A program made the position numbers and the translations under genes. A stretch of DNA of 64,000 bases, taken from positions 1-64,000 of the forward strand of contig WTFU01000162.1 in the NCBI GenBank assembly GCA_011523945.1, in the 5' to 3' direction. Position 1 is the stretch's first letter; each line of letters starts with the position of its first letter. Shown piece by piece: positions 15,690-28,357 of this stretch. Source of the DNA: Mariniblastus sp. Lineage in GTDB: Bacteria > Planctomycetota > Planctomycetia > Pirellulales > Pirellulaceae. The notes below the pieces were generated by a model that was not told the DNA's origin, ran no database searches, and saw only the letters and a list, made by a program, of their open reading frames with translations.

Positions 15690-15948
15690 GGTTTGACAAA
15701 TGAGTTCTTGCGGGGAATATCCTTTTTAGTGACAGCAAAAGTGTCCTGATATTTAGATTCTTAATGGTTATTAATTAAAAAATAGACGTTGGGGAATTCG
15801 TTCGGAAATTCGTTTGTCATAATGAGGTTGCGCTTTCTCGAGGGCTAACAAGGGGCGTTTAAAGCTGTTCTCAAGCGACGGTTTTGGTTAGAGTGTCCAG
15901 GTCAGGCTGGTTTGTTTTTTGGTCGCTGTCGATTGGGGGAGATGGATG

Positions 15949-17364
15949 ATGAGAAACTTTTTAAAGAGGCACGGTGTGCTGGTTACCGCCACCGCAGGGG
16001 TGATCGCTTGTTTTAGCATTCACGTGATCCAGAGTAATCAGAAGACAAAAACAGAGTTTGCCGCATTGGTTGATTTGAGTTCTCAGAACTTAAAACCTGT
16101 TCGATTTTTGATGGAACCAGACACCGTTACCGGTGAAGTTGAATCGCTGATAGATGAAGGCGACATTTTTGAAGCCCCCGTTCGCTTAAAAGTCGGGGAG
16201 CAGTTTCTAAATAACGCTGCCCGTCAGATGTATCCTTCACCTGCCATGTTTGATATTGATCGCGATGGTCAACTAGAATTGGTTGTGGGGGATATCAGTG
16301 GAAGACTTAACGTTTATGAAAATCTTAGTGACGAAAAATCAGACCCGGTATGGAGTTCACATATTCCAGTAAAGTTGAGTGACGGGGCTAATGTTAAAGT
16401 ATCGAATTGGTGATGCGTCGGTATGAGTTCACAGTTGGTGGACTTCAATGGCGACGGAAATCAAGATGTGCTAGTGGGTAGCTTTAGTGGATCACCTCAT
16501 TGGATCGAAGGAAGTGAGAACGGGTTTTTGCCGTCCGCGGCGCTAAAAGATCGCGACGCAGAGGATGTTCTGATTTCGGCATTTTGGAATACGGTCGATA
16601 AAAAGTGGGATAAGTCCGATCGCTCTGGCACGGAAGGGCATTGCACTTCCGTCGCGGCGGTTGATTGGGAGGGAGATGGTGATCTGGATCTTGTTCTCGG
16701 CGGCTATTACAAAGGCGGTCTATTTTTGAGGATCAATGAAGGGACGGCAACAGAGCCAAAGTTCGCTCCGAAGAATACTGTGATTCAAGCAGGGGGCGTG
16801 CCGATGATTATCGAAGGCGGTTTGTCGACTCCTCGCGTCGTAGATTGGAACGGTGACGGAAAATTTGACTTGCTCTGCGGTGGGTCAAAAGGAGGTGTTT
16901 TCTATTTTAAAAATGTTGGCGAGGAAGCGGAACCTAAGTTTGCCTCTGCAGAGGTGTTGATTGAGCCTATTGATGATTCTTCCTATATAAAACGGGTTCC
17001 CACACGCGACGGACAACCGACACAGCCAGGTTCGTCATTTCACATCGACGCGGTTGACTATGATCAGGATGGAGACCTCGATCTCCTCGTTGGAGGGCGA
17101 TGTTCATGGGAAAAAGAAAACGTGCCCGTACAGACCGAAGAGCAAAAGGCACGGCTTGCAGAACTCACCAAGGAGATGGAAGCAATAATGCCGAAGTTGA
17201 GGGAAATGTCGGAAGAGATAGGTAAGTCGGGTGAGAATCCAATGGAGAATGAAGATTATGAGAAAATGATACGCTCGTATTCTAAACTCAGTCGCGAAGC
17301 CTCGCGGTTGAGAGTCTCTCCGTTTGAGTCAGGTGATTTTGTCTGGCTTTATCGACGTAAGTAA
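15949..17364 (+). CDS. Exported VCBS/FG-GAP-repeat protein with in-frame UGA: candidate selenoprotein
   Basis: Two frames usually called as separate genes (ending at 16413, restarting at 16423) are in the same phase and split only by one TGA at 16411-16413. Read through, they give one protein of about 471 residues. It has a membrane anchor or signal sequence (1-30) and four or five FG-GAP/VCBS calcium-loop repeats: FDIDRDGQLELVVGD, VDFNGDGNQDVLVGS, VDWEGDGDLDLVLGG, VDWNGDGKFDLLCGG and VDYDQDGDLDLLVGG, then a charged coiled coil. The UGA (residue 155) lies in SNW-UGA-CVG between repeats one and two; the downstream piece alone starts inside a repeat and has no signal peptide. A SECIS-like hairpin follows. 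ATG 15949 is 7 nt after GGGGGAG. Alternatives are a nonsense mutation or UGA read-through as another residue. Confidence 0.6.
16414..16456 (+). promoter_or_regulatory. SECIS-like hairpin directly after the in-frame UGA
   Basis: GAGUUCAC (16425-16432) pairs over its whole length with GUGGACUU (16438-16445), 8 bp including two G-U pairs, closing a five-base AGUUG loop. Below it, an internal loop and a 5-bp stem CGUCG/CGACG (16416-16420 with 16452-16456) extend the helix to within 3 nt of the UGA. The loop begins 20 nt after the UGA and contains GU. In E. coli fdhF the equivalent loop GU, bound by SelB, lies at nearly the same distance. The bulged U of the fdhF upper stem is not obvious here. 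The fold was found by eye; no energy was computed. Confidence 0.5.
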
Positions 17365-17372
17365 TTTCGATT

Positions 17373-18230
17373 TTAGGCGAGTTGAGTTGAGTCTCCACAG
17401 CAATACAGGTCGTGAACTTTAATTACTAATTCTACGCTGTCTGCGATTCGAGGGTTTCCAAATTCACCGACCGCAATACAGATGGAATAGTCCTCCGACG
17501 CTTTCTCATATTTAACGACCCAATCCTCGAACCACTGTTGGTGACGCGGGGTTTGAAATGGGAATCGCGTGGGAGGGGCTGACATCCGGATGCGCCATGG
17601 CTTCGGCGTTAGCCGAGCACGAAAGCAGGATTGACGCTCGCACAGTTGAATATATAGTTTATCGCTGCCAAGTCGCTCGAGAAGTTGGTTGGCTTCATTC
17701 GAACCGGGTTCGAATTCAGTGTGCGTTATCGCCGCCCGGTAGCCGGCTTTGGTTTTGTAAAGACGTAAACCAAAATCTGGATTTTCTTCGCATAGGTTGT
17801 GAATTTGCTCGAGTAAGACGGGATCAACGGCAGGAATGTTTGGTGAGTCGTTTGGTTTGCTGCCAAACATTGTTTTCAGACTCCCCCAGAAACCAAGCGA
17901 GGGTTCGGGGCGGTCAATATCTGCAAAAAGAACATTGCCTGCATTGAGAACAAGGGAACCGTAGTTGTTGCGTGTGATGATCGCAACCACTTGTTCGTTG
18001 AGGGAAAGCTCCTCAATCAGCTGCTCGGGAAGAGCATCTAGCCCATAACCGTAAGCTTCTTGAGCGGAAGGCCGTTGGGCCAGTTCCGATATTTTCATAT
18101 CGGCTCGCTCTAAAGCCAATCGTTCCGCGTCAGCTTGACTTTCGTTTGAATATCCCCAGGCTCGAACAGGGAAATTGTTGGGGCCTAGTCGGGTCGAATT
18201 AGCTTTGGCCCAATATCGGTAGTATCGCAT
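17373..18230 (-). CDS. Conserved-looking protein of unknown function
   Basis: 285 residues, no signal peptide and no membrane helix, so probably cytoplasmic. I recognise no named domain. The N-terminus ('RYYRYWAKANSTRLGP', then 'AERLALERADMKISELAQ') and the central 'YGLDALPEQLIEEL' and 'AIITRNNYGSLVLNAGNVLF' segments are well structured. A segment 'FGLRLYKTKAGYRAAITH' and a Cys-containing 'LYIQLCERQSCFRARLTPKPWRIR' follow. The tail ends 'VIKVHDLYCCGDSTQLA', with a CC pair. It converges on the candidate selenoprotein gene with an 8-bp gap. Codon use matches its neighbours, so it is probably a real gene, but its role is open. Confidence 0.65.
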   Translation of the reverse strand: MRYYRYWAKANSTRLGPNNFPVRAWGYSNESQADAERLALERADMKISELAQRPSAQEAYGYGLDALPEQLIEELSLNEQVVAIITRNNYGSLVLNAGNVLFADIDRPEPSLGFWGSLKTMFGSKPNDSPNIPAVDPVLLEQIHNLCEENPDFGLRLYKTKAGYRAAITHTEFEPGSNEANQLLERLGSDKLYIQLCERQSCFRARLTPKPWRIRMSAPPTRFPFQTPRHQQWFEDWVVKYEKASEDYSICIAVGEFGNPRIADSVELVIKVHDLYCCGDSTQLA

Positions 18231-18338: not shown

Positions 18339-19796
18339 TCAGGACAAAATGCCTTTAATTACGTGCGCTTCCTCTTCGACTCCGGTTAATCGTTGGTCTA
18401 ACCCCTGAAATTTAAACGTTAACTTTTTGTGGTCGATGCCAAGTTGATGCAGGATGGTAGCATTCAAATCACGAATGTGTGTTGGGTTTTCTGTAATATT
18501 GTAACTGTGATCGTCAGTTGCTCCGTATTCACAGCCGCGTTTGATTCCGGCACCGGCCATCCACATCGAGAAGCATCGACCATGGTGATCCCGACCGTGA
18601 TTATCTTTGGTTAATTTCCCTTGCGAATAAATGGTTCTTCCAAATTCGCCACCCCACACGACCAATGTGTCGTCGAGCATGCCCTGTTGTTCTAAGTCAC
18701 GAATCAGGGCTGCAGCTGGCCGATCAATATCCTGGCATTGCTGTCTCAGTTTTGAGGGCAGCGCGCCGTGTTGATCCCAGCCGCGATGAAAGAGCTGGAC
18801 ATAGCGAACACCTTTGGCGACCATACGGCGCGCGAGGAGGCAGTTCCTTGCAAACGAACCCGGTTTTTCAACATCCGGACCGTAAAGATCTTTGACGTGT
18901 TGAGACTCTTGCGAAATATCCATCAAGCCGGGCACCTCGGTTTGCATTCGAAATGCCATCTCAAATTGTGAGATGCGCGCTTGGGTTTCGGGATCCGAAA
19001 ATTTATCAAATGTACCCTGATTTAGTTCATTCAAGCTGTCCAGCATTCGTCGCCGTCCCGCCCTGTCAATTCCGGGGGGGTTGTTGAGGTAAAGTACAGG
19101 TTCACCATTGCTTCGCAGTTTTACACCCTGGTGTTTTGACGGGAGGAATCCTGATCCCCAGAGGCGGTCGTATAAGGCTTGCAGTTGTCCCCTGCCTCGA
19201 GAGATCATTACGATGTACGCCGGCATATTGTCGTTTTCACTTCCAAGGCCGTAGCTCAGCCAGGAGCCGAGTGTCGGTTTTCCTTGCTGTTGCACGCCGG
19301 TGTTAATGTAGGTGATCGCAGGGTCGTGGTTTACCGCCTCGGTATACATGGATTTGACAATTGAAATTTTGTCTACAATCGAAGCAGTATTGGGAAGGAG
19401 ATCTTTGTTCACCCAGGTTTGATGTTCGCCGTATTTTTCAAACTGAAACATAGGGGCAACGCAGGGGAATGACTTTTGGCCGCTGGTCATTCCAGTCAGA
19501 CGCTGGCCCTGTCGAATGGAGTCCGGTAGTTCCTCTCCATGAAATTTTCGCATTGCCGGCTTGTAGTCAAAGGTATCAATATGGCTCGGCCCACCCGCCA
19601 TAAAGAGATAAATAATCCTTTTTGCTTTCGGGGCGAAGTTTGGGAATTGCGGCAATCCGGGGTGCGATCGATTTTGTTCATTAGCGTAGAGACTGCCGAC
19701 TAAACTCGGGTTAATCAGCGTGCTGAGCGCCATCGCGCCTACGCCATTTCCAGAGCGCAGTAAAAATTGGCGACGAGATTCCGTTTCAAAATTCAT
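18339..19796 (-). CDS. DUF1501 (sulfatase-fold) exported protein, cassette 1
   Basis: 485 residues. The N-terminus '[18 protein letters not shown]' is a Tat-type signal (R8-R9 then a hydrophobic stretch). The rest is the DUF1501 domain, an alkaline-phosphatase/sulfatase-like fold expanded in planctomycetes: '[20 protein letters not shown]', '[20 protein letters not shown]', '[16 protein letters not shown]', '[20 protein letters not shown]' and a C-terminal '[20 protein letters not shown]'. The start lies 12 bp after the stop of the PSCyt1-DUF1553 gene, so the two form an operon. The biochemical activity of the family is unknown; a joint role with the DUF1553 protein in processing carbohydrate is inference. 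Confidence 0.9.
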
Positions 19797-19808
19797 TGCC
19801 TTACTCGG

Positions 19809-22800
19809 TTAGTTTCGTGTCAGGGTTTCATCTAGATTGAGAATCATTTGGCAAACGATACTCCAGGCGGCCAGGTCGGGTTCGGTCATTGATTCTGATT
19901 TAGGGGATTCGCCAACAGCCAATAATTGTTTTGCGTTTTCCGGTGATTCAAGGAATCGTTGACGTTGATCTTCGAGTAGTTTTTCAATCACTGCGTGTTC
20001 GCGTAGACTTGCCTTGCGCGAAGTGCAAAGTTGGTATGCCCGATCAATTCTGCTAGAGGTATCAGTTGATTCGGTAAGAACTCGCTCTGCCATTTTTCGT
20101 GCGGCTTCGACAAACTGAGGGTCGTTGAGAGTCACCAGTGCCTGGAGCGGCGTGTTGGTGCGAGCGCGTTGGACTACACATTTCTCTCTTGAAGGTGAGT
20201 CAAAAATCATCATATTGGGCATTGGGGCGCTTCTTTTCCAATAGGTATACATTGATTTTCGATACAGCTTTTTCCCTTTGTCCTGTTTGTATCGAAGGCC
20301 ACCGTTAAGGCTGACTTCATTCCAAATATTTGGCGGTTGGTAGGGTTTGACACTGGCTCCTCCGGTCTCGTCGGTGAGTAAGCCGCTCACAAACAGCGCC
20401 TGATCGCGAATAAATTCTCCCTGGAGGCGGAAACGCGGGCTGTAGGATAGAAGTAGGTTCTCCGGATCGTGTTGCTGTTGCAGGGATGAACGTCGTGAGC
20501 TTTGACGATAAGTTTGCGACATGACCATGCGTTTTAAAAGCTGTTTGACGTTCCAACCGGATTCAACAAACTCGACGGCCAGCCAGTCAAGAAGTTTGGG
20601 GTGCGTGGGGGGCATCCCTTGAGCGCCAAAATCTTCCGGCGTTCTTACAAGGCCTTGCCCGAATAGCATCATCCAGTATCGATTGACAGCGACTCTGGCT
20701 GTTAATGGATGTTCTGGCTGGGTAAGCCATTGGGCAAGTCCGAGGCGATTAGCCGGAGCCGACTTGGGAAGTGGCGGCAACACTGCTGGAACGCCCACGT
20801 TGACTGGTTGGTCTTTTAGGGGGGAGTCGTATTGGCCGCGGTCCAAAATGTAGGTCGTTCTCATTTTATCAGCAGGGTTATCTTGCATCACCATCGAAGT
20901 CAGTGGTTTTGCATTTAACGCCTTTTGCTTTGATTCAGCGTCCGCGAGTTGCGCGGCGATTGTCATTGACTCTTGGTCAATCGTCGAAAAGAAATGTTGC
21001 TTGAGTGCGTTTAATTGCACTTCCTGACGTTCTTCTGGCGGGATCGAGAGAATGTACTCAATTGGATTTCCTGGAAACGCGTTGATTTCTTTGACGGAAA
21101 GAGCTCGGTTGTAGATTCGGATATCATCAACCCCGCCTCGCCAGTTTGCCCCCTGTGACCGACTTCCAATTTTAAAGTCTGCGGCGGTTTCGGTCGTACC
21201 CTTTAGTGTGTTCGTTTCAACGGTGTTGGCTGACAACGTCCCGTCTATATGGATTTTAACTCCCTGAGGTTTTTGCGAACCGTCGTAGGTAATAACAATG
21301 TGCTGCCACGTATTAATTTTTAACTGGTCTGTTGATACCACTTTGAGTGCATTGGAGGGCCAAGTATTGATGATGTGGGTACCGATGCTTCGTCCTTGAA
21401 CCCATAAATCGTAACCACGGAACGCTTGTGGAACATCCATACGGGAAAAAACAGCACCCGAAGATTTACCATCCGTCTTAATCCAGGCCGCGAAAGAGAA
21501 TGGCTGGTCACTGCGGATTTCGATCTTCTTTTCGTCGGAGACAAATTGAGTTTGGCCATTGAGGTTCAATGCCGAGGAACCGCTGCGGTCAACTGTTTGC
21601 AGTTTCCCTTTTTCCTTTTTTGCCACCGCTCCGGTGACACGGTTGGCCAGTTCGTTTCCGTGGGTCTCGTCCAACGGGTACCATTGGGTCAATCCCGGAG
21701 GTTCCGTATTCTTAGACTTGTCGGTTGCCTTTTGTGTGGCCTGATCGACCCACTTAACGAATTCTGGTGCCGCGCCGACTTTGCGTTCAGCAAGTTTCTT
21801 TTTTGTTGTTTCGATACTCGACTGTAGACTGTCTAGCTGACTGCGAAGTTCAGCGGAAATGACGCGAACTGTGGGACTCTGATTGCCATTCCTCGTTTGC
21901 ATGCCGGGATCGGTCGTATTGTTAAAATACGCGAAAAATTGGTAGTACTCCTCTTGAGAGATTGGATCGTATTTATGGTCGTGGCATTGGCTGCATTCCA
22001 TTGTCAAACCTAGCCAGACCGTGGAGGTGGTTTTAACCCGGTCGACTACATATTCCACACGCAACTCTTCGGCAAAAGCTCCCCCTTCGTCACTTGTCGC
22101 GTGGTTTCTATTAAAGCCCGAGGCAATTTTTTGTTCTACAGTTGCATTAGGAAGCAGGTCGCCGGCAAGCTGTTCGATCGTAAATTGATCAAACGGCATG
22201 TTGGTGTTGTAGGCCTTGATGACCCAGTCGCGCCAGGGCCACATATCTCGCGGACCATCGGCATGCATTACACTGCTGTCGCCGTATCGAGCAGCGTCGA
22301 GCCAAGCCAATGCCATTCGCTCACCATAAGCATTTCTGGCAAGTAGGCGATCGACCAAATCTTGGTAGGCATTGTCGATTCCTCGGACGCTTATTTCCTC
22401 TTTGAATTGTTCGACCTCAGATGGTGTGGGAGGGATTCCGTTTAAATCGAATGTCACACGGCGAATTAGGGTTTCAGGATTGGCGGGCCGGGTGGCAGTC
22501 AGTGGAGACGCTAGTAATTGGTTCGCAATGAACTGATCGATTGATTTTGCCCAAGGCGCTTTTGCAGGAGATACGAAAGACCAGTGTCGTTGATATTCTG
22601 CTCCTTCCTCGATCCACCGTTTCAGGGTTTCCTGCTGTTGGGGTGTTAGTTTTTTATTCGAATCAGGCGGAGGCATGATTGAGTCCGCGTCGTCTGAAAA
22701 AATACGCTTCACGAGTTCGCTCTCGTCCGGCTTGCCAGGCCGAATTGCGTCCGCGGCGATCGCTGGTTCCCGTTTGTCGAGACGTAATTCTGCAGCGCGG

Positions 22801-23015
22801 GTGGAAGCCGCCGGGCCATGGCAAAGAAAGCAGTTATCCGACAAGATTGGACGGATATCGCGGTTGAAATCGAGTTTTTCGTCAGCCCGAAGTGGTCCAG
22901 AAAATAAAATGCCCAGGAAGATGGCTAACGTTGAAATTTGTCTTGAGACGGTGGTTAGTGCAAGCAGCGTTTTAGCAGGGTGTGCCAAAGGAATACCGGT
23001 GAATTCTAGATTCAT
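19809..23015 (-). CDS. PSCyt1-DUF1549-LamG-DUF1553 exported protein, cassette 1
   Basis: 1068 residues. Order: hydrophobic export segment (28-44), planctomycete cytochrome C domain with haem motif C62-x-x-C65-H66 (NCFLCHG) and distal Met in DSIMPPP, DUF1549 (about 155-370) ending in a second CxxCH (CSQCHDHK, near 340), a LamG-like jelly-roll domain (about 440-650; 'SFAAWIKTDGKSSGAVFSR', 'WRGGVDDIRIYNRALSV'), then DUF1553 (about 740-1065; 'HPLTARVAVNRYWMMLFGQG', 'LLKRMVMSQTYRQSSR', 'ARTNTPLQALVTLNDPQFVE'). Thought to be an exported haem protein acting with its DUF1501 partner; substrate unknown. LamG suggests glycan binding. Confidence 0.95.
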   Translation of the reverse strand: MNLEFTGIPLAHPAKTLLALTTVSRQISTLAIFLGILFSGPLRADEKLDFNRDIRPILSDNCFLCHGPAASTRAAELRLDKREPAIAADAIRPGKPDESELVKRIFSDDADSIMPPPDSNKKLTPQQQETLKRWIEEGAEYQRHWSFVSPAKAPWAKSIDQFIANQLLASPLTATRPANPETLIRRVTFDLNGIPPTPSEVEQFKEEISVRGIDNAYQDLVDRLLARNAYGERMALAWLDAARYGDSSVMHADGPRDMWPWRDWVIKAYNTNMPFDQFTIEQLAGDLLPNATVEQKIASGFNRNHATSDEGGAFAEELRVEYVVDRVKTTSTVWLGLTMECSQCHDHKYDPISQEEYYQFFAYFNNTTDPGMQTRNGNQSPTVRVISAELRSQLDSLQSSIETTKKKLAERKVGAAPEFVKWVDQATQKATDKSKNTEPPGLTQWYPLDETHGNELANRVTGAVAKKEKGKLQTVDRSGSSALNLNGQTQFVSDEKKIEIRSDQPFSFAAWIKTDGKSSGAVFSRMDVPQAFRGYDLWVQGRSIGTHIINTWPSNALKVVSTDQLKINTWQHIVITYDGSQKPQGVKIHIDGTLSANTVETNTLKGTTETAADFKIGSRSQGANWRGGVDDIRIYNRALSVKEINAFPGNPIEYILSIPPEERQEVQLNALKQHFFSTIDQESMTIAAQLADAESKQKALNAKPLTSMVMQDNPADKMRTTYILDRGQYDSPLKDQPVNVGVPAVLPPLPKSAPANRLGLAQWLTQPEHPLTARVAVNRYWMMLFGQGLVRTPEDFGAQGMPPTHPKLLDWLAVEFVESGWNVKQLLKRMVMSQTYRQSSRRSSLQQQHDPENLLLSYSPRFRLQGEFIRDQALFVSGLLTDETGGASVKPYQPPNIWNEVSLNGGLRYKQDKGKKLYRKSMYTYWKRSAPMPNMMIFDSPSREKCVVQRARTNTPLQALVTLNDPQFVEAARKMAERVLTESTDTSSRIDRAYQLCTSRKASLREHAVIEKLLEDQRQRFLESPENAKQLLAVGESPKSESMTEPDLAAWSIVCQMILNLDETLTRN

Positions 23016-23431
23016 AAAACTTTTTCCAAAGGTGCGATCCGTTTTCCACAGTGCATCAAAAACAGTCAGTCGGTAGAAGAACGATTTGCGCCCAAGCGAT
23101 CGTCGCTCAGCGCGAGACTGGAACTAAGGACATTTTTTAGTACCCCTCTATCCTAGTCGATTTTTAACTTCTCTACTGCTGCGAATCGTGAAAATTTAAA
23201 CGGGAAAAAGCGGAATGTCATTTGAATCCCAGCAATTTGGGTTCGATGAAACAGTTTTGATAAATACCGAATCTCGTTGCATTTTTTATCTTGCGAGGAA
23301 AACGAGCCAATTGGGTTGGTTTATCCCCATTTTTTTACACAAACATGAATAGCTTGTGCAAGCCAAGCAAACTGTTCTGAGATATAATCACGAGGGTATT
23401 TTTCATTCGCGGAATCGTGTGGACAACTTAG
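23016..23431. other. Shared divergent promoter region of the two DUF1553/DUF1501 cassettes
   Basis: A 416-bp gap between two divergent, structurally parallel operons. On the plus strand a perfect TATAAT (23383-23388) lies 43 bp upstream of the start codon of the right-hand cassette, but no good -35 box is at the right distance. On the minus strand I see no clear boxes. No repeat, operator or RNA gene was noticed. The layout would allow coordinated control of both cassettes, which is inference. Confidence 0.45.
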
Positions 23432-26400
23432 ATGCGGCACTTTTTATTAACGCTCGTTTTTTGCTTTCCATTTGGGCAGGGATCACTTGTTGCGTTTGAG
23501 GATGTAGATTTCAATCGTGATATCCGTCCAATCTTGTCGGAGAAGTGTTTGCTATGTCACGGGCCCGATCCAGAGGGGTTGGAAGCCGGTTTGCGTTTAG
23601 ATCTTCGAGAAGCAGCGCTCTCGGTGCTTGAAAGTGATCTTATCGCGATCGTGCCAGGATCGCCCGAAGAAAGTCAATTGGTGGAACGGATTATGTCCGA
23701 CGATGAGGATATACGTATGCCTCCTCCGGAACACGGTCAAGCGCTCAATGATGAACAAATCAAATTGATGACTCGTTGGATAAAAGAAGGGGCAAAATAT
23801 GCCACGCATTGGTCTTACGTTAAACCTGAACGTCCTCGGTTACCTGTCGTTGATATCAATTGGGCAGATTGGCCTCAAAGTCCGGTCGACCATTTTACCT
23901 TAAGGAAAATGACCGAACACGGCTTGTCACCGTCGAAGCCTGCGGATCGGTATGCGTTAGCCCGGCGTCTCTATTTGGATATAATCGGTTTGCCACCCAC
24001 GATCGAAGAGGCGGATCAGTTTGTAGCCTCGACGGATCCTGAAGCGTACGAAAATCTAGTGGATGACTTACTTCAACGACCAGCCTATGGAGAACACTGG
24101 GCGCGGAAATGGCTAGACTTAGCGAGGTATGCAGATAGCGCTGGGTATGCCGATGACCCTCCACGAACAATCTGGGCTTATCGGGATTGGGTCATTAATG
24201 CATACAATCGCAATCTCCCATTCGATCAATTCACGCGTGAGCAAATTGCGGGTGATTTGCTCTCGTCGCCAAGTGATCAGCAAATAATTGCAACAGCATT
24301 CCACCGTAATACATTGACGAATAATGAGGGTGGCACGCAGAACGAGGAATTTCGCAATGTGGCTGTGGTCGATCGGGTCAACACGACAATGGCGGTTTGG
24401 ATGGGCACTACGATGGCTTGTGCGCAGTGTCATACGCACAAGTACGACCCGATCACGCAAGAGGAATATTTTCAGTTTTTCGCGATTCTAAATAACACAG
24501 AGGATGCGGATCGTCGCAATGAAGCGCCATTGCTAAATGTTTTTACAGAACAACAAATTGAGACTCGACGACAATTAGATAAACAAATAGCTGAACTGAC
24601 TTCTGTGCTAGATCGCAGTACACCGGAACTTGACGATGCGCAGCGACAGTGGGAGACGCGTCTCAAAACAGCGTTGTCCTGGGACACATTGGTGCCAAAT
24701 TCGATTGTTCGCAAAAGCAAAAAATCAGGGGAACTGTTGAAAGACGGCAGTCTGTTGGTTACCACTGCGGCGGCTCAAGATGAGTATACGATTGAATTTC
24801 CAATCGAAGTCGATTCAGGGAACGTACTAAATTGGTCAGCCATTCGGCTCGACACGCTACCTCATGAGCGTCTCAATAATTTGTCGAGTGTTGGGGCGAA
24901 TTTTGTTATCACTGGACTCGAGGCGGATTTGATTCCGGTCGAGAATTCAGTTCCCAGCGCGAGATTTGTTCGGGTGACCAACCGGGGCAGCAAACAGATC
25001 TTGTCGCTTGCAGAAGTACAGGTATTCAGTGATGGGAAAAACGTTGCAACTCAAGGGACTGCAACTCAGCATTCGACCGCATATGATGGCCCGCCTGAAT
25101 TAGCAATTGATGGTAATACAGACGGAACCTTTGCGAATCATTCGGTAACGCACACGGCGACTGTTGATAATCCGTGGTGGGAGCTGGATCTCGGTTCGTC
25201 TATTGGAATTGAACGCGTCAGCTTATGGAATCGTTTGGAATCTTCGGAGCGGCTAGCTGGATTTACGGTTGAGTTGTTGAATTCAGATCGAGAAGTAGTC
25301 ATGGTTCGAGAATTCGAAAATCCTCCCAAGCCCTCATTGGATATTCCTACCGATCGAATTCGTAAGATAAAATTTAAAGCGGCGTTTGCTGATTTTAATC
25401 AGCCTGAGTTCGAAGCAGCTGATGTTTTGGCGGGCAAAAATGGGCCGCGAGATGGTTGGGCAGTCGGTGGTTCTGCCGGCGAACCGCATCAGTTGACTTT
25501 GATACCCGAAACGCCGGTCAAGGTCGATGAGCCTGCGATCTTGAGAATTCGATTGGAGCAGAATGCGCCGTACGAAAATCATCTTGTCGGTCATTTTAAA
25601 TTTAAGGTGACAGAAGATGAGGTAGCGATTGAACGTGCCAATATTCCTGTAGATATCATCAAGGCTCTCGATACGGAGAAGACGGAGAGGACGGACGAGT
25701 CCGGCCAGGCATTGTCTAGCTATTTTCGTTACGAGGTCGCTCCATCCTTAAAACCCCAGCGAGGGGAGCTTGCGAAAGCTAAAGCTCAGTTGGAAGCACT
25801 CAAGCCCGCAACGTCCGTTCCTGTTCTCCGAGAGTTAGTGGAAAACCGCCGGCAAACTCATTTACAGTATCGTGGAAATTACCTCGATAAAGGTCAATTG
25901 GTTGAGCCGGGATTTCCGGCTGTTTTTCATAACCCCGAGTCCGGACGGCAAGCTGATCGATTGGTTTTGGCCAACTGGTTAATCGATGCCGACAATCCAC
26001 TGACCGCCCGTGTGTTGGCCAATCGATATTGGGAAACGGTTTTTGGGCGAGGAATCGTAGTAACGAGTGAAGAATTTGGATCGCAGGGAGAGCTGCCAAC
26101 GCATCCTGAACTTCTCGATTGGTTAGCGGCGGAGTTGGTGGAGAATGACTGGGATGTTCGCCATCTTTTGAAGACACTTGTCATGTCGTCCACCTATCAG
26201 CAAAGCGCGTTGGCGGATCCGGACCGGATTGCTGCGGATCCAGATAATCGCTGGCTTTCACGGGCACCACGGGTTCGACTAAGTGCAGAAATGGTTCGTG
26301 ATCAGGCTCTCTTTGTCAGTGGATTGCTGAGTCGGAAAATGTTTGGTGCTCCGGTAAAACCCCCACAGCCCAACCTTGGCTTGAAGGCTGCATTTGGAGG

Positions 26401-26893
26401 CTCGACCGACTGGAAAACGAGTGCTGGAGAGGATCGTTATCGAAGAGGGATCTATACAACCTGGCGTCGAAGTAATCCTTATCCTTCAATGGCAACTTTT
26501 GATGCACCCAATCGAGAGGTCTGTACGGTCCGGCGAAATAGCACGAATACTCCACTTCAGTCATTGGTCACGCTTAATGATCCAGTCTACGTCGAAGCAG
26601 CGCAGGCGCTCGCCCGATTGGTGATGGAAGAAGAGTCTGGAATTGAGGATCGAGTAAAGTTTGGGTTTCGGCGGTGCTTATTACGCCCGCCAACGGCGAG
26701 CGAAATTTCGGCGATGGTGTCGCTGTTTAACGATTCGGTAAAGCGATTGGGCGACCAGCCTGGCGAAGCCGCTAAACTTTCGTCAGATCCGCTTGGGCCG
26801 CTGCCTGACGGGATGGATTCGGTGGAGGCTGCGGCGATGACGGTGGTCTGTAACGTAATCCTGAATTTGGATGAAATCTTTTTGAAACGGTAG
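23432..26893 (+). CDS. PSCyt1-DUF1549-discoidin-DUF1553 exported protein, cassette 2
   Basis: 1153 residues. Order: signal peptide (1-22), planctomycete cytochrome C domain with C39-x-x-C42-H43 (KCLLCHG) and '[11 protein letters not shown]', DUF1549 (about 150-360) with a second haem-type motif CAQCHTHK near 330, a discoidin/F5-8-type-C-like domain (about 505-640; '[20 protein letters not shown]', '[20 protein letters not shown]', '[20 protein letters not shown]'), then DUF1553 (about 840-1150; '[20 protein letters not shown]', '[20 protein letters not shown]'). It shares the architecture of cassette 1 but carries a different middle domain, so it probably recognises another ligand. The DUF1501 gene begins 3 bp after its stop. 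Confidence 0.95.
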
Positions 26894-26896
26894 TAA

Positions 26897-28357
26897 ATGA
26901 ATTTTTATCTAAACCAATTAAGAGAGCGGACGAGGCGGCACTTTTTATCTGCCTCTGGCGTGGGCGTGGGAGCGATTGCTTTATCTTCATTGACCGGAGC
27001 GACGGCATCAGCAGACATTCCCATTGATGCGACACAGCCGCTTGCCAAGCGGAAACCGCACTTTGAGGCGAAAGCCAAGCGGGTAATCTATCTGCATTTG
27101 ACAGGGTCCCCACCCAATCTTGATTTATATGACTATAAACCAGAACTGGTAAAACGTACGGGAGAGCCTTGCCCTGATGAGTTCTTGAAAGGACGAACGT
27201 TCGCGTTTACCTCGGGCGTTCCAAAATTATTGGGCACTCCCCGAAAATTTGCTCAATATGGCAAGAATGGAACTTGGCTTTCTGATGCCGTGCCGAACTT
27301 TCACGCTCCGGATATTGTTGATGAGATGTGTTTTGTTCACTCGATGAACACCGATCAATTTAACCATGCTCCCGCCGAGCTGTTGATTTACACCGGATCG
27401 CCCCGCTCAGGGCGGCCGTCACTTGGAGCTTGGGCGACCTATGGACTCGGCACGGAGAATCAAGATTTGCCGGGGTTCGTGGTCCTTATTAGCAGCGGAG
27501 TGCAACCCAATGGAGGCGCTAATTCATTCGGGAGTGGATTTCTACCTTCGGTTTTCCAGGGGGTGCAGTGTCGCTCGAAAGGCGATCCTGTTTTGTATGC
27601 TTCTGATCCGAAGGGGATGGATCGATCACTTCGGAGGCGATCGCTGGATGCTCTTCGGGAACTCAATGAAATTCAAGCGGCTGAAATGAAGCATCCTGAA
27701 ACGCTAACTCGGATTGCCCAATACGAGCTGGCCTACCGAATGCAAGATTCGGTTCCGGATGTGATGGATATCACTCGGGAAACCAAGGAAACGCATGAGG
27801 CGTACGGTGCTGTGCCGGGGCAGTCAAGTTTTGCAAATAACTGTTTACTTGCTCGTCGATTGGTAGAAGGTGGGGTTCGATTCGTTCAGCTGTTCGATTG
27901 GGGGTGGGATTTCCATGGGACGGGCGCAAGTGAAGGGCTCAGAAATGGTCTGACCAAAAAGATGGGAGCGACTGATAAACCGATTGCCGCGCTGATCCGT
28001 GATTTAAAACAACGTGGTCTACTCGAGGATACGCTTATTGTGTGTGGCGGTGAATTTGGACGCACTCCTTTTCGAGAGGGGCGGACTGCCAAAGGCAAAG
28101 TCCTCGGAAGGGATCACTATCCAGATTGTTTCACGATGTGGATGGCTGGGGGAGGAGTTAAGGGGGGATTCAATTACGGTCAGACGGACGAACTTGGTTT
28201 TGGTGTCACCGAGAATAAAGTTCACGTTCATGATTTACAGGCCACAATTATGAAGTTGATGGGATTTAATCATGAAAAATTAACCTATCGATTCCAGGGA
28301 CGAGATTATCGTTTGACGGATGTGCATGGCAGGCCAGTTGATGAATTAATCAGTTAG
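26897..28357 (+). CDS. DUF1501 exported protein, cassette 2
   Basis: 486 residues with a twin-arginine-like signal ('ERTRRHFLSASGVGVGAIAL', R13-R14). DUF1501 features match its cassette-1 homologue: 'RVIYLHLTGSPPNLDLYDYK', 'FVQLFDWGWDFHGTGAS', 'LIVCGGEFGRTPFREG', 'GRDHYPDCFTMWMAGGG' and 'TIMKLMGFNHEKLTYRFQG'. One difference is SPPNLD where cassette 1 has GPSHID, so the His of the usual GGPSHxD motif is absent. The start codon follows the DUF1553 stop by 3 bp, so translation is probably coupled. Next on the same strand come the ECF sigma factor and a protein kinase. Confidence 0.9.
   Translation: MNFYLNQLRERTRRHFLSASGVGVGAIALSSLTGATASADIPIDATQPLAKRKPHFEAKAKRVIYLHLTGSPPNLDLYDYKPELVKRTGEPCPDEFLKGRTFAFTSGVPKLLGTPRKFAQYGKNGTWLSDAVPNFHAPDIVDEMCFVHSMNTDQFNHAPAELLIYTGSPRSGRPSLGAWATYGLGTENQDLPGFVVLISSGVQPNGGANSFGSGFLPSVFQGVQCRSKGDPVLYASDPKGMDRSLRRRSLDALRELNEIQAAEMKHPETLTRIAQYELAYRMQDSVPDVMDITRETKETHEAYGAVPGQSSFANNCLLARRLVEGGVRFVQLFDWGWDFHGTGASEGLRNGLTKKMGATDKPIAALIRDLKQRGLLEDTLIVCGGEFGRTPFREGRTAKGKVLGRDHYPDCFTMWMAGGGVKGGFNYGQTDELGFGVTENKVHVHDLQATIMKLMGFNHEKLTYRFQGRDYRLTDVHGRPVDELIS

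Follow-up and report, generated by a model that had tools for sequence, protein, structure and literature searches.

A conserved in-frame UGA-Cys site in FG-GAP propeller proteins of Planctomycetota: a candidate selenoprotein family

The window analysed here is a 64,000 nt stretch of DNA from Mariniblastus sp. (contig WTFU01000162.1, positions 1–64,000). It has a reading frame at positions 15949–17364 of the plus strand that is interrupted by a single in-frame TGA (positions 16411–16413), located between two frames of the same phase. Does this TGA end the gene, or is it read as selenocysteine (Sec)? The read-through product is 471 residues, with Sec at residue 155 followed directly by Cys156 in the context SNW-U-C-VG. 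An original prediction, made from the letters of the sequence, proposed a new selenoprotein at this site. Its reading of two same-phase frames split only by the TGA, with a Cys codon next, is confirmed by sequence and translation, and FG-GAP repeats are present on both sides of residue 155 (Pfam PF13517, 3.3e-22 for the window protein). Almost certainly the product of the gene is exported, has the shape of a propeller and carries Sec beside Cys. At the level of sequence comparison, the proposal of a selenoprotein is supported by conservation of the UGA and the Cys, by the Sec machinery of the genome and by a covarying hairpin. A conventional gene caller closes such a gene at the UGA or opens it only past that codon.

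Conservation of the UGA-Cys site

In a first round of 40 genomes (the own genome and 39 relatives), some match to the window protein was present in 28 and none in 12. Of 24 genomes from the same genus, 12 have a match whose one internal stop is a TGA, and of 15 from the same order, 3 do. There were 18 such matches, and 17 genes were extracted (the window gene and 16 relatives). All 17 show a TGA followed by TGC or TGT at the same column, with identities to the window protein of 30–94% (15 aligned relatives). Chance is excluded because the UGA-Cys column is conserved. The terminal stops of the 17 frames are mixed, TAA, TAG and TGA. The same TGA is carried by other assemblies, e.g., that of genome G007 with 94% identity, so a sequencing error, one of the ways in which the original prediction could have failed, is not credible.

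A sample of 392 genomes of the phylum gave 119 with a match at E 1e-20. At least 92 of the 392, the own genome included, have a family member with one TGA, and the sole internal stop among the strong matches listed is this single TGA. Outside this phylum the family reaches into Verrucomicrobiota, Fermentibacterota and WOR-3 bacteria. Genome G025 gave a weak FG-GAP match (E 1.2e-6) with an internal TAA, which was rejected as a family member.

The original prediction named Cys or further UGA codons at residue 155 of homologues as support for Sec. The fetched loci (L-numbers below; G-numbers are genomes) provide 112 relative rows in which the site is aligned, and 106 of these are Sec-Cys (92) or Cys-Cys (14). 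Merging of near-identical places reduces the 92 Sec-Cys rows to 87 distinct TGA-TGY places; one of six paralogues in locus L109 is outside these 87. The six other rows (L094, L103, L095, L125, L141 and the second L127 match) were left out of the Sec-Cys and Cys-Cys counts. L103 reads U-G, and its TGA appears to be a chance occurrence in a genome without SelB. L094 reads U-D: the UGA is kept, the next residue is Asp and the genome has SelB. This may be a Sec that works without a vicinal Cys, or a site that is decaying.

Cys homologues exist at the Sec site. Six genomes of one genus (G220, G277, G338, G389, G423 and G427) and genome G227 have an open frame instead of the TGA, and the site is Cys-Cys in all that were fetched, i.e., five of the six same-genus genomes and G227. 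On a quick tree of the 86 U and 13 C members (99 in all), the residue switches between U and C at least four times, and starred branches force three of these switches. The finding extends beyond what the original prediction claimed: the family is large, with members in several phyla, Cys-Cys versions and fusions suggestive of DsbD-type redox chemistry.

The coding sequence on the far side of the TGA is under purifying selection. The dN/dS values 3' of the TGA are 0.045–0.10 in every one of the 21 pairs that the seven closest genes form; one more distant pair has a value of 0.156 and other distant pairs are saturated. For the same 21 pairs the values 5' of the TGA are 0–0.08 where computable, which implies that constraint is slightly stronger upstream.

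A SECIS-like hairpin and the selenocysteine machinery

The sequence directly after the UGA can be folded into a hairpin that appears to be a SECIS-like (selenocysteine insertion sequence) element in the position expected for bacteria. With the U of UGA as nt 1, the hairpin spans nt 16–34 (positions 16426–16444, plus strand), and folding and covariation define a core stem of nt 18–22 with 28–32 (16428–16432 with 16438–16442). The loop, nt 23–27 (16433–16437), is AGUUG in the window and mostly AGUUN or AGGUN in the family; the GU at 24–25 presumably resembles the loop of E. coli fdhF. The window sequence of 45 nt from the UGA has a folding energy of -15.4 kcal/mol with a z of -3.0, and none of 200 shuffles was as good. 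The outer pairs 16–34 and 17–33 form in the window, with only 43 and 54 of 86 sequences, respectively, having them.

A comparison of 86 distinct sequences shows that the five core pairs are 97% paired, a value reached in 0 of 2000 column shuffles. Double-changed cells number 19 vs a shuffle mean of 2.4, also reached in 0 of 2000. When the partner strand is slid by 1–3 nt, 25–50% of pairs remain, with 1–14 double-changed cells. Pair 21–29 is A-U in 66 sequences, G-C in 12, G-U in 3, C-G in 3 and broken in 2, and six changes between A-U and G-C are found at this pair on the tree. A swap here consists of a silent Pro change (CCA to CCG) coupled to a Val-to-Ala change (GTG/GCG). Codon usage in the stem also departs from that in the rest of these genes: GTG encodes the Val of codon 10 in 70 of 70 cases vs 31% of Val elsewhere, and CCA encodes the Pro of codon 7 in 51 of 67 vs 13% elsewhere. 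In the 13 Cys-Cys sequences, pair 20–30 is broken in 11 and pair 18–32 in 9, and the mean folding energy of nt 13–40 is -3.6 kcal/mol vs -9.0 kcal/mol in the Sec-Cys sequences. A covarying hairpin at the expected SECIS position gives the Sec reading evidence beyond that offered by the original prediction.

The machinery for Sec, named in that prediction as selA, selB, selC and selD, is present in the own genome. SelA (588 bits), SelB (370) and SelD (259) all match above cut-off. The tRNA-Sec model gives 67 bits, and ARAGORN confirms this match with the anticodon TCA. Among 14 control genomes, matches above cut-off were found in one for SelA, two for SelB and two for SelD. In the phylum sample, where SelB was scored at E 1e-65, it is present in 84 of 92 genomes with the UGA gene vs 151 of 300 others (Fisher 5.7e-14). 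Of seven Cys-Cys genomes in this sample (G427 being counted from its open frame), G227 alone has SelB. Among 24 genomes of named loci, all 17 that have a TGA gene (16 Sec-Cys and 1 U-D) contain SelB, as does 1 of 6 Cys-Cys genomes, and the genome of L103 lacks it. Overall SelB is absent from 11 of 13 Cys-Cys genomes; most relatives that lack the Sec machinery have Cys-Cys at the site. One of the Cys-Cys genomes with SelB, that of L117, has its SelB in the same place as genome G033, which has a Sec-Cys gene (L014); because of this shared place, the two probably are a single organism that carries both forms.

The SelD match in the own genome (L187, G000:C78) lies inside an open frame of 740 residues vs 311 positions in the model, and this long frame may be a fusion.

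Several observations weigh against the reading of the UGA as a hairpin-directed Sec codon. The shuffled columns are already 92% paired, and register -2 of the slid stems gives 14 double-changed cells vs 19 in the true register. At least one core pair is broken in 8 of the 86 sequences, with several broken in L086, L135 and L138 (L135 and L138 have an apparent shifted stem by eye). The Cys-Cys relatives keep pairs 19–31 and 22–28 in 13 of 13 and pair 21–29 in 9 of 13, and both the hairpin shuffles and the codon tests ignore the kinship of the sequences. The tRNA-Sec model passes its cut-off in 5 of the 14 control genomes, and so a match to this model by itself is weak evidence. Eight of the 92 UGA genomes (G170, G185, G188, G251, G264, G276, G307 and G344) have no SelB match at E 1e-65; their listed completeness is 64–90%.

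Other explanations of the TGA have been considered together with these points. A true stop would mean either a pseudogene or two genes with a restart at the ATG at position 16423 (residue 159), four codons past the TGA codon. TGA does end 8 of 33 hand-picked larger open reading frames (ORFs) of the window, and the presence of this ATG corrects the earlier claim that the downstream piece has no start of its own. Met is found there in only 26 of the 87 Sec-Cys places, however, which means that no separate start is conserved. The UGA is kept at one column across phyla with purifying selection after it, and the Cys-Cys relatives are single open frames; a true stop is highly improbable. A general reassignment of UGA, or its read-through to a standard amino acid such as Trp or Cys, would equally account for a UGA in frame within a gene under selection. 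Yet TGA terminates those same 8 of 33 ORFs and several frames of the family, a tRNA-Sec with a TCA anticodon is present together with SelA, SelB and SelD, a covarying hairpin follows, and the relatives have Cys and not Trp at the site. Reassignment is regarded as just as improbable as a true stop. The window comes from a draft assembly of 208 contigs, which could allow an error at the TGA, but a one-TGA member in so many of the sampled genomes and the same codon pair in every one of the genes first extracted make such an error the least credible explanation of all. Pseudogene, restart, code reassignment and assembly error are accordingly rejected. It is very probable, and as secure as sequence evidence can well render it, that the UGA is decoded as Sec155 by SelB and tRNA-Sec as directed by the hairpin.

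The predicted propeller, its redox context and a possible function

The gene at 15949–17364 is assigned as a Sec-Cys FG-GAP propeller gene from its frame, translation, Pfam matches and relatives. A probable ribosome-binding site, GGGGGAG (positions 15935–15941, plus strand), is seen just 5' of the ATG at 15946/15949. The predicted N-terminal export signal (15949–16011) is a hydrophobic segment recognised by eye. N-termini in the family resemble export signals by eye, some with a lipobox; a candidate lipobox V-I-A-C (Cys21) of the window protein is not kept in its close relatives L007 and L008. A Por secretion tail is matched in 14 of 99 members scanned, and FG-GAP repeats are present in 99 of 99.

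A structure was predicted from a 38-sequence alignment, with Cys in place of Sec (pLDDT 86, pTM 0.81). In the model the strands form five blades, the blade count being read from the strand list; a helical hairpin follows, and a strand at the C-terminus closes the structure. The five FG-GAP blades comprise residues 95–388 (positions 16231–17112), as also indicated by Pfam, and the helical hairpin ahead of the last strand comprises residues 397–454 (17137–17310). The predicted location of the Sec-Cys pair is the loop entering the first strand of blade 2. Residue 155 is assigned as Sec from its conservation in relatives, and the codon of Cys156, the vicinal partner (16414–16416), is Cys in 38 of 38 rows. 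Both pair positions read as Cys throughout the 38 rows, which were chosen for having the pair; the only other Cys-bearing column with 10 or more rows is residue 232 (17 rows). Foldseek top matches include propeller proteins with a query TM of about 0.3 or less, and sequence and fold searches of the PDB gave integrin, KICSTOR and other generic matches only. Weak Pfam names such as TcdB_toxin_midN were under cut-off for the window protein and were taken as shared repeats.

Some relatives of the window gene are fused to or lie beside thiol-disulfide domains. A DsbD_N domain (PF11412) is fused to 5 of 99 members: it is N-terminal in L033 and L076 and C-terminal in L106 and L162, which are all Sec-Cys, and the Cys-Cys member L126 has a C-terminal DsbD_N together with a TlpA/Redoxin domain at its start. 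A DsbD_N-like profile was built from these five fused stretches. With this profile, eight Cys-Cys genes were seen to be followed at once by a DsbD_N-like stretch (L169, L171, L177, L181, L117, L092, L114 and L179, that of L179 assigned by position). Pfam searches of four of these downstream ORFs matched those of L092 and L117; the ORF of L169 fell just short of the cut-off, and the small ORF of L114 had no match. By locus, the profile is found in 9 of 12 Cys-Cys loci, 5 of 88 Sec-Cys loci (four distinct genes) and 0 of 88 loci without either, where many loci have flanks of only 1.5 kb and duplicates are included. In Kordiimonas gwangyangensis (L114) the gene order is sigma factor, FecR, TonB-dependent receptor, FG-GAP (Cys-Cys), DsbD_N-like and full DsbD. 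Locus L121, from a member of the Rikenellaceae, has three FG-GAP (Cys-Cys) genes, the last cut by the locus end, with a thioredoxin. Six tandem FG-GAP genes with one Sec-Cys site each are present at L109:1–8041 in an unclassified bacterium, and sorting-domain tails were found in three of these paralogues scanned singly. About 2 kb past this cluster, at L109:10272–11039, is an AhpC/TSA-type gene with an in-frame UGA and a UxxC site (U-A-D-C).

Locus L109 is an unusual local cluster of selenoprotein genes; its AhpC/TSA-type gene is preceded by an ORF that matches a porin below threshold. L033 and L015 (genome G023) represent the same DsbD_N and FG-GAP Sec-Cys gene, in which the frame breaks at the third blade; the break may be an assembly error or decay.

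The recurrence of DsbD_N, thioredoxin and AhpC/TSA domains, fused or adjacent in several lineages, points to electron supply. The proposed mechanism would be as follows. The hairpin would direct SelB and tRNA-Sec to insert Sec at the UGA, and the product would be exported and would fold as a five-bladed FG-GAP beta-propeller, with the vicinal Sec155-Cys156 in the loop entering blade 2. Outside the cytoplasm the pair would alternate between a selenenylsulfide and a selenol/thiol state, with electrons coming from a DsbD-type path by way of a DsbD N-terminal domain or a thioredoxin-like partner, and the reduced pair would then reduce an extracytoplasmic substrate. The best overall explanation, considered likely, is a Sec-Cys propeller acting in thiol/selenol redox chemistry outside the cytoplasm, with electrons supplied along a DsbD-type path. 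The particular cycle of Sec155-Cys156, with DsbD-type electrons passed to an extracytoplasmic substrate, is held with somewhat less confidence, the available sequences leaning in its favour. A broader reading, in which the family forms an unrecognised extracytoplasmic redox relay, with DsbD-type domains supplying a Sec-Cys propeller that serves as the terminal reductase or a redox sensor, is evenly balanced.

The evidence on the other side of this redox reading is as follows. No redox gene adjoins the window gene, and six of the profile-positive loci supplied the profile itself (L015 being counted with L033). The model has Cys for Sec, and its confidence is lower at the site (block mean 77). 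In favour of the redox reading, the own genome encodes a protein with DsbD_TM and DsbD_N on another contig. With no adjoining redox gene and 5 of 88 Sec-Cys loci positive, the DsbD link for the Sec-Cys branch is mostly by relatedness, and a DsbD-fed redox centre is the best reading largely on account of the relatives.

The chief competing explanation is binding of a metal or ligand. Here the protein is a selenoprotein whose Sec-Cys pair mainly binds a metal or metalloid, or gives a ligand pocket its shape as a rigid vicinal ring. Soft metals are bound by vicinal thiols, ligand sites are often at the tops of propellers, and the Kordiimonas gene sits behind a TonB-dependent receptor and sigma/FecR genes. 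The thiol-disulfide domains fused to or beside the gene in several lineages argue against it, and it is regarded as a doubtful, though serious, alternative. The Cys-Cys form occurs in a strain-collection species, K. gwangyangensis DSM 19435 (L114), and its function is therefore testable now.

Relation to known families and neighbouring sequences

The family resembles bacterial selenoproteins that depend on SelA, SelB, SelD and tRNA-Sec in having a conserved UGA, a hairpin in the usual place, Cys homologues and the full machinery. It differs from the listed ones in its propeller family and its U-C motif. Table 1 of a 2026 inventory (PMC13188914), the part of that source compared here, has 119 prokaryotic selenoprotein families and subfamilies, with those of Haft and Tolstoy 2025 cited, and no entry by the name of FG-GAP, VCBS or propeller; the earlier statement that known families do not include exported VCBS proteins is in agreement with these names. 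The same table includes CU-motif selenoproteins of the SaoC, SaoL, HgcA, MbdU and Csac_0668 type. These have adjacent Cys and Sec as here, whereas the order here is Sec-Cys and the setting a propeller, the comparison being by motif only. Within the parts of the literature covered (including PMC12013277 and PMC4807772), nothing relevant was found on a selenoprotein or selenocysteine with FG-GAP or VCBS; the supplement of PMC4807772, with selenoprotein candidates of two planctomycetes, is outside this comparison. NCBIfam (June 2026) gave two matches for the window protein, both under cut-off, and no selenoprotein model. For 38 rows including the window protein, six models matched at E ≤0.01 with none named selenoprotein, led by XAC2610_fam (15) and FusH (12), these being matches by E-value. 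An FG-GAP selenoprotein family was not found in the inventory table, in NCBIfam or in the literature covered, as distinct from being proven absent. That the family is such a relay, and with it the first selenoprotein family with a propeller fold of which we are aware, is held at even odds.

FG-GAP/VCBS propellers (PF13517, PF01839), including the heads of integrin alpha and CRTAC1, share the repeat with DxDGDG-type loops; the window family differs in its five blades and in a Sec-Cys before blade 2, and solved structures match weakly. Extracytoplasmic DsbD/TlpA thiol-disulfide systems are similar in that DsbD_N, thioredoxin and AhpC/TSA domains are fused to or beside some relatives, but the propeller is not a thioredoxin fold and the window gene itself is tied to such systems only indirectly. 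Pyrroloquinoline quinone alcohol dehydrogenase propellers carry a vicinal disulfide and, likened by description only, have a vicinal pair in a propeller as here. At least 92 of the 392 genomes sampled from the phylum have a member of this one family, which appears to carry Sec in a fold unlisted for selenoproteins, and this would link selenium use to exported proteins and DsbD-type electron supply. If the relay reading is true, these proteins are among the commoner selenoproteins of Planctomycetota, with up to six tandem copies in one genome.

A search for a recurring neighbour among 521 ORFs from 52 loci and part of the window gave, beyond the two largest clusters, none in more than four loci. 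The family genes fall in the largest of these clusters (40 loci), and the next (18 loci) was judged to be antisense ORFs; two clusters common to L075, L077 and the window represent local synteny. Besides the window gene, a search of the own genome (5.4 Mb, 208 contigs) found four weak FG-GAP matches, none of which has an internal stop, and an Rfam scan of the window gave no match. A minus-strand ORF of 285 residues (positions 17373–18230), with no Pfam or NCBIfam match, adjoins the gene. Further downstream, positions 18339–28357 of the window contain two pairs of DUF1501 and PSD1/PSCyt (planctomycete cytochrome) genes, arranged back to back on opposite strands.
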